This document shows, one piece after another, positions 29,401 to 29,753 of a stretch of 64,000 nt of DNA (positions are counted from its first letter, which is position 1; every line of letters starts with the position of its first letter). Made by a program: the position numbers and the translations under genes. Origin of the DNA: Acidobacteriaceae bacterium (GTDB lineage: Bacteria; Acidobacteriota; Terriglobia; Terriglobales; Acidobacteriaceae); contig JAJPKO010000018.1 in NCBI GenBank assembly GCA_021323655.1, positions 1 through 64,000 on the forward strand. Reading direction: 5' to 3'. The notes under the pieces were generated by a model that made no database searches, was not told where the DNA came from, and saw nothing but the letters and a program-made list of their open reading frames with translations.

Positions 29401-29753
29401 TCTTCGCTGGCCTCGCCGCTCCGTCCGCTCCCTCTCAGGGTGTCATTCTGAGCGAAGCCGCAGGCGAAGCGAAGGACCCGCTTTTGTCACCGGAGCAGCA
29501 CGCGTCCACCCGCGGCATGGGAGCAACTTCGGCGCCGCAGCGCGGAATTGTCTCTGACCTGATCGCCAGCACTGAATCCAAAGTAGACCACCTTCACATG
29601 GAAGACCGCGGTGTCTACCACGCCGCCGACGCCATGAAGGACCTCTATGACATGGGCGACGCGCCCAGCTGCCACACCTGCGGAGCGATTATGGTCCGCA
29701 ACGGAAGCTGCTACCGCTGCATGTCCTGCGGCAGCACCAGCGGCTGCAGTTAA
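26493..29753 (+). CDS. nrdJ: Adenosylcobalamin-dependent (class II) ribonucleotide reductase
   Basis: Reduces ribonucleotides to deoxyribonucleotides using a B12-derived thiyl radical; 1086 aa, the long NrdJ form. The barrel shows [32 protein letters not shown], the radical/substrate loop [18 protein letters not shown] and [21 protein letters not shown]. A TSCPD domain (about 870-970) and a C-terminal zinc ribbon ([21 protein letters not shown]) follow. ATG 26493 has AAGGAG 6 bases upstream. Residues about 983-996 ([16 protein letters not shown]) are encoded by a family 1 dispersed repeat inserted in frame in the linker before the zinc ribbon. A strong terminator follows. No nrdAB genes are in the window. 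Confidence 0.97.
   Translation: [1086 protein letters not shown]
29441..29478. repeat. Family 1 dispersed repeat inside nrdJ
   Basis: The stretch TGTCATTCTGAGCGAAGCCG and the following AGGCGAAGCGAAGGACC is a near-consensus family 1 copy lying in frame in the nrdJ coding sequence, between the TSCPD domain and the C-terminal zinc ribbon. Confidence 0.75.

Follow-up and report, generated by a model that had tools for sequence, protein, structure and literature searches.

A REP-like dispersed repeat translated in frame within a linker of the class II ribonucleotide reductase of Acidobacteriaceae

A short dispersed repeat is translated in frame within the variable linker that precedes the C-terminal zinc ribbon of the vitamin B12-dependent ribonucleotide reductase NrdJ in an Acidobacteriaceae bacterium. 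The same repeat occupies 20-23 of 108 such linkers collected from NrdJ homologs, has more than one placement within NrdJ and is also found inside other core enzymes. Taken together, the evidence makes it likely that this is a REP-like repeat which is dispersed through the genomes of the family and is tolerated, along with its translation, in protein linkers. The window analyzed here is a stretch of 64,000 nucleotides from the genome of this bacterium (G000; 4.59 Mb in 65 contigs), and all the window features given below lie on its forward strand.

The nrdJ gene (26493..29753) encodes a protein of 1086 residues, which is matched by the NCBIfam model NF005122 with 1488 bits over residues 8-1086, and by the Pfam models for the barrel (Ribonuc_red_lgC) and the TSCPD domain. 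Its best named relatives are the enzymes of Silvibacterium- and Acidipila-type Acidobacteriaceae, with 84-85% identity. The translation ends in a cysteine cluster, the zinc ribbon (29670..29750; CHTCGAIM...CGSTSGC), in which C1060, C1063, C1073, C1076, C1079 and C1085 are invariant in an alignment of 34 of the 110 NrdJs that we collected. This alignment has no invariant column from F971 to M1048, a span that corresponds to the linker joining the TSCPD domain to the zinc ribbon (29406..29633) and is therefore a region of NrdJ where inserts should be tolerable. An AlphaFold model of the protein (mean pLDDT 52.6) was rejected as evidence of disorder: the linker has a pLDDT of about 25, but much of the barrel is also below 50. 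Since the genome additionally encodes a class I ribonucleotide reductase (alpha, L336, and beta; loci L336 and G000:C27:94166-95023), the essentiality ascribed to nrdJ in an earlier note on this DNA is unproven.

The repeat unit in nrdJ (29442..29478) comprises 37 nt: a 17-nt left part, GTCATTCTGAGCGAAGC, that is an exact instance of the left half of the repeat (29442-29458), a 12-nt insert, CGCAGGCGAAGC (29459..29470), and the right part, GAAGGACC. It is directly preceded by a GGT glycine codon and reads through in the nrdJ frame, with a 13-residue reading. Against a repeat model built without any nrdJ copies, the left and right parts score 13.8 and 7.7 bits, respectively, and the window as a whole has three matches to the pattern at up to three mismatches versus 0.32 expected. 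The central claim of the earlier note, a dispersed repeat in frame inside the reductase linker, is thus confirmed.

The repeat has the layout of a left half, GTCATYCTGAGCGRAG, a variable insert and a right half, GAAGRAYC. Across 201 distinct copies the conserved halves read GTCAT(C/T)CTGAGCG(A/G)AG and GAAG(G/A)A(T/C)C; the twenty commonest insert lengths range from 1 to 40 nt, with 1, 12 and 2 nt being the commonest, and the long inserts are frequently hairpins, as judged by eye and from sample folds. The halves pair as ATYCT/AGRAT, and the sixth base covaries with its partner in the right half (C-G in 160 copies, T-A in 25, C-A in 11, T-G in 3 and other combinations in 2; Fisher p=4e-20 for the first four pair classes), from which it follows that the two halves form a stem. 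Read from the sequence, the core has four stop-free frames out of six, namely VILSEAKD, HPERSEG, ILRFAQDD and SFASLRMT.

A genome-wide count of the kind suggested in the earlier note recovered the left half 37 times at no more than one mismatch (reversed-pattern control 0) and 79 times at no more than two (control 4). A compact form lacking the insert is present in seven copies at up to three mismatches (control 0), the nrdJ copy not being one of them. Left-half matches at up to one mismatch were found in all 40 related genomes searched, in numbers from 1 to 349 per genome versus 0-2 for a reversed-pattern control; the lowest counts (G069 and G070) probably represent chance matches. At the level of the phylum (149 genomes), an exact left-half match is present in 12 of 15 genomes of the window's family versus 6 of 134 others. 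In Granulicella rosea the copies often come in inverted pairs, ~60-130 bp apart. The repeat thus has the general features of REPs in being short, dispersed, mostly extragenic, present in many copies and folded into a palindromic stem-loop. An Rfam search with seven loci yielded no above-threshold match for the repeat, with one sub-threshold match in L006 (23.7 bits versus a gathering threshold of 70; E 0.53), and a search of the accessible literature for the repeat strings and their peptides found no relevant paper. The translated strings are presumably common in the predicted proteins of other phyla. A 2025 survey of REPs includes Granulicella aggregans in a table, and the accessible portion of its text does not contain the string CTGAGCG (PMC12306157).

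The nrdJ loci were gathered in two collections (80 + 30), which after setting aside two duplicates provided 108 examples of the linker preceding the zinc ribbon; these were scanned with a profile of 12 seed copies, all from outside nrdJ, using a cut-off of 6 bits. At this cut-off 20 of the 108 linkers carry the repeat, and three weaker ones (L014, L090 and L083; 4.1-5.6 bits) were also read as repeats, bringing the total to 23; matches below 4 bits (L071, L084 and L062) were treated as chance. The linkers evolve fast and have a biased composition, which would favor an accidental resemblance of a GC-rich linker to the repeat, but codon-shuffled linkers show a mean of 0.08 matches, with a maximum of 1 in 50 sets, versus the 20 observed, and such a coincidence is refuted, with practically no probability left to it. 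The loci and the window together gave 45 profile matches at E<1 (12 of which are the seeds, with two nrdJ copies present twice) as opposed to none for the reversed control. The earlier note held that its reading would fail if the peptide were conserved in NrdJs of distant species devoid of the repeat; by eye, however, linkers without a repeat score never carry the full peptide, with only short look-alikes seen in L017 (LLSEAEAHEE) and L026 (MLSESELAE). The first linker of NrdJ, which joins the barrel to the TSCPD domain (105 extracted), has one clear copy in G034 (L096, 3811-3851; 23.1 bits), as well as a weak one in L079 (6.6 bits) that is almost identical to the C-terminal linker copy of the same protein. 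Outside the linkers, the rest of the nrdJ sequence (289 kb) has no score above 8.3 bits.

The copy in the window's nrdJ recurs in L009 with an identical flank, CTCTCAGGGT, and an almost unchanged insert, and in a more diverged form in L014. In G001 the corresponding position of the linker holds a look-alike without a score, and L008 is without the repeat. Judged by its sequence, the copy is inherited from an ancestor common at least to L009. Thus, of the proposal that a mobile or REP-like element entered nrdJ at a tolerant site without disrupting the frame, the REP-like repeat, its frame and the unconserved linker stand, whereas a private, recent event does not, because L009 and, in diverged form, L014 have orthologous copies.

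We then examined the distribution of the repeat on a tree of 106 NrdJs computed with the linker excluded (L099, which at 6.1 bits is among the 20, and L066 were omitted as short, leaving 22 labelled rows). Presence and absence are interleaved such that at least 11 changes are needed, 10 of them forced by the starred branches, with gains and losses not being separable. The copies of the window's own clade and of the Edaphobacter clade lie upstream of a conserved linker motif. In the Edaphobacter/Granulicella clade they precede TTPPQQG, with L044 having the same surroundings and no repeat, and in L096 (G034) the copy follows TTPPQQG (6.0 bits). The copy in L108, from a distant clade, has the tail CCTATC, which is seen in three of four sampled copies of its own genome versus none of 178 sampled from other genomes; across five genomes the tails agree on average in 8.7 of 18 letters when drawn from one genome and in 8.4 when drawn from different ones, and only the comparison of L108 with its genome (G032) is informative. 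A single early insertion into the linker, made in the common ancestor of the family, followed by loss in many lineages and by retention of the repeat sequence through selection or through gene conversion with intergenic copies, would accommodate the common sense and frame of all 23 linker copies, the orthology of the own-clade copies and the motif LSGGAAGxxG common to L060, L063 and L072, and the difference in placement between the own-clade and Edaphobacter-clade copies is itself unproven. Nevertheless, it sits poorly with the copies found further downstream in the linker and in a second linker, with the genome-specific tail of L108, and with the presence of the repeat in none of the 42 rows of the Terracidiphilus + Occallatibacter clade, and we regard it as unlikely, if the least so among the alternatives. 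We conclude that there were several acquisitions by NrdJ, three to five in number, together with many losses. Among the own-clade and Edaphobacter linkers examined, neither a cleanly empty site nor a duplicated target could be made out, because the linker evolves too fast; in the DNA alignment of Edaphobacter linkers, from which the L096 row was excluded, divergence is too great for insert ends or a target duplication to be placed around L044. Among close Edaphobacter relatives, L068 and L075 differ by eye from L078 in the variant of the repeat at the same approximate place, as if it had been replaced.

All 23 linker copies are in the sense orientation with the core in the VILSE (VILSEAKDP) frame, and both first-linker copies (clear in G034, weak in L079) are in that frame too, whereas the copies in other genes use all four of the open frames. 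For four or five independent placements and four equal frames, the odds of a common frame are 1 in 64 to 1 in 256, which raises the prospect that the VILSEAKDP segment was selected as a spacer of the C-terminal redox arm, such that NrdJ linkers keep accepting one frame. Such recruitment is hard to reconcile with the 85 of 108 linkers without the repeat and with the copies that look decayed (L016, L083 and perhaps G001). Moreover, the presence of the repeat in the linker follows its density in the genome (medians of 11.2 versus 5.5 per Mb in 22 versus 18 of 40 chosen genomes; one-sided p=0.021 with relatedness ignored), as chance landing would. We therefore hold recruitment to be distinctly improbable.

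Beyond nrdJ, two of the three intergenic copies listed in the earlier note were recovered between genes: 23088..23119 (20.1 bits), which also served among the 12 seed copies, and 33380..33414 (15.7 bits), which lies beside a UvrD helicase gene at its 3' end. The third, at 36094, escapes the model even at E<10 and can be no more than a decayed copy. A better copy, absent from that list, is found at 36767..36794 (15.7 bits), where it overlaps the 3' end of a LOG-family gene (36202..36825; TIGR00730, Lysine_decarbox). It begins in codon 189 and, with the bases that follow, encodes the last 19 residues of the protein (GHPEQSRDICLSSEQSIRF) and the stop. The matches of relatives to this protein end by residue 192 of 207, that of the same genus at 189; the C-terminal tails of the relatives differ, and those examined are without a repeat-derived tail.

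For copies in other genes, we sampled 220 distinct instances of the full pattern (40 from the window's own genome, 129 from G. rosea and 51 from others) and checked 10 candidate frames against protein families, so that the genic cases represent a lower bound. Few of the sampled copies lie inside supported genes, and in the own genome nrdJ is the sole convincing interior case among the 40. In G. rosea in-frame copies are found in PEP carboxylase (L323), RecG (L294, two copies), RNase R (L328) and CheA (L320), and an in-frame inverted pair in a PMT_2-type protein (L197). The genome KBS 89 has them in an ABC-F protein (L218) and a second PMT_2-type protein (L160), and RYN_15 (G088) in MnmG/GidA (L214), where the copy is read in the antisense frame GVLRSAQND. 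Together, these inserts outside nrdJ span all four open frames. On comparison with solved homologs, the insert falls in an alignment gap in MnmG (138 to 211 versus 152 to 162, in a loop that is ~60 residues shorter in the best solved homolog), PEP carboxylase (381 to 429 versus 718 to 727) and RNase R (367 to 410 versus 579 to 582); in RecG (162 to 217 versus 152 to 156) the first copy falls within the gap and the second immediately follows. The alignment of the ABC-F protein to its solved homolog ends upstream of the insert, and in the PMT_2-type proteins the family match stops before the insert, downstream of which the frame is open with coding-like third positions. MnmG narrowly failed the codon-position filter and was retained from an earlier candidate set. 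L155 was dropped for want of a family match. L241 and L249 of the own genome, although they passed the codon-position filter, were dropped as two-mismatch matches in seemingly ordinary coding sequence. In a further G. rosea locus (L302), a frame of 800 codons has the repeat between a sodium symporter domain and a serine hydrolase domain of the beta-lactamase fold, where it may have fused two genes. In a genome of which nearly nine tenths is coding, evenly landing copies would mostly end up in genes; the small genic fraction seen suggests that harmful ones have been purged.

With respect to mobilization, no link to a RAYT-type transposase, which the earlier note had thought worth seeking, was seen. 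The own genome holds only a broken fragment of a Y1 (IS200-like) transposase (L118, 1501-1800), and the 3.1-kb locus around it has no match to the repeat model. In eight of the 40 related genomes no Y1 match was found at E<=0.001, including the copy-rich G034 (197 copies) and G086 (150 copies), and across the 40 genomes copy density correlates with Y1 count at rho 0.28 (p 0.08). Mobilization by a RAYT thus has no support from these data; the Y1 searches of the own and related genomes identified no mobilizing enzyme, and no autonomous parent transposon of the kind that defines a MITE was found for the repeat. Tyrosine transposases of Acidobacteria are named in a study of tagged REPs (PMC3733652).

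These observations can be brought together in a model in which a short, hairpin-forming, REP-like repeat of Acidobacteriaceae, with conserved halves around a variable and often palindromic insert, would spread through genomes and mostly settle outside genes. A genic copy might survive in an unstructured linker if its length and phase preserve the frame, for which four stop-free frames out of six would be available. NrdJ would offer two such linkers, both of which hold copies within Acidobacteriaceae, and the copy in the window would by now be a near-neutral spacer before the zinc-ribbon arm. We infer that the repeat arrived by insertion rather than gene conversion, that it is mobile and that it is neutral. 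A more far-reaching version, in which the two linkers of NrdJ are a recurrent, frame-biased site of acquisition, the peptide is reused as an adjustable spacer of the redox arm and repeats supply linker modules to core enzymes across the family, strikes us as rather unlikely. Many related genomes are at different stages of gain and decay, so that the route from non-coding repeat to protein segment can be tested, as can the question of whether linker peptides gained in this way are neutral or put to use.

Acidobacteriaceae are mostly free-living soil bacteria. The best-known palindromic repeats that are translated are those of Rickettsia, and intragenic REPs have been reported elsewhere; here a different repeat is found in the core enzymes of Acidobacteriaceae. 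The Rickettsia palindromic elements are described, in the part of the source available to us, as palindromic dispersed repeats of ~150 bp that are translated in frame within unrelated genes (PMC10969869). The present repeat is similarly in frame in unrelated conserved genes (nrdJ, PEP carboxylase, RecG, RNase R, CheA, MnmG and ABC-F), but its core is only ~25-60 nt and it belongs to Acidobacteriaceae rather than rickettsiae, the likeness drawn here being one of description. REPs tagged with GTAG or CGTC are, according to the accessible part of the report on them, short, palindromic and mostly intergenic, with some lying within genes of DNA and RNA metabolism, including recB of two Xanthomonas species, where they occupy about the same site; for the CGTC repeats that part names five phyla, Acidobacteria not being among them (PMC3733652). 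The present repeat is likewise short, palindromic, mostly intergenic and sometimes intragenic. It differs in lacking the tag, which is absent both from its consensus (starting GTCATYCTGAG) and from the consensus flanks of 111 G. rosea copies, and in filling a single nrdJ linker in 20-23 of 108 relatives. Enterobacterial RU elements and intragenic MITEs, in the available portion of their description, are small non-autonomous repeats of 103-168 bp with coding capacity (PMC2759123); the present repeat is also small, non-autonomous and capable of coding, but is shorter and has no identified parent transposon. On the best reading of these parallels, the repeat would be REP-like and analogous to both the Rickettsia palindromic elements and the intragenic REPs.
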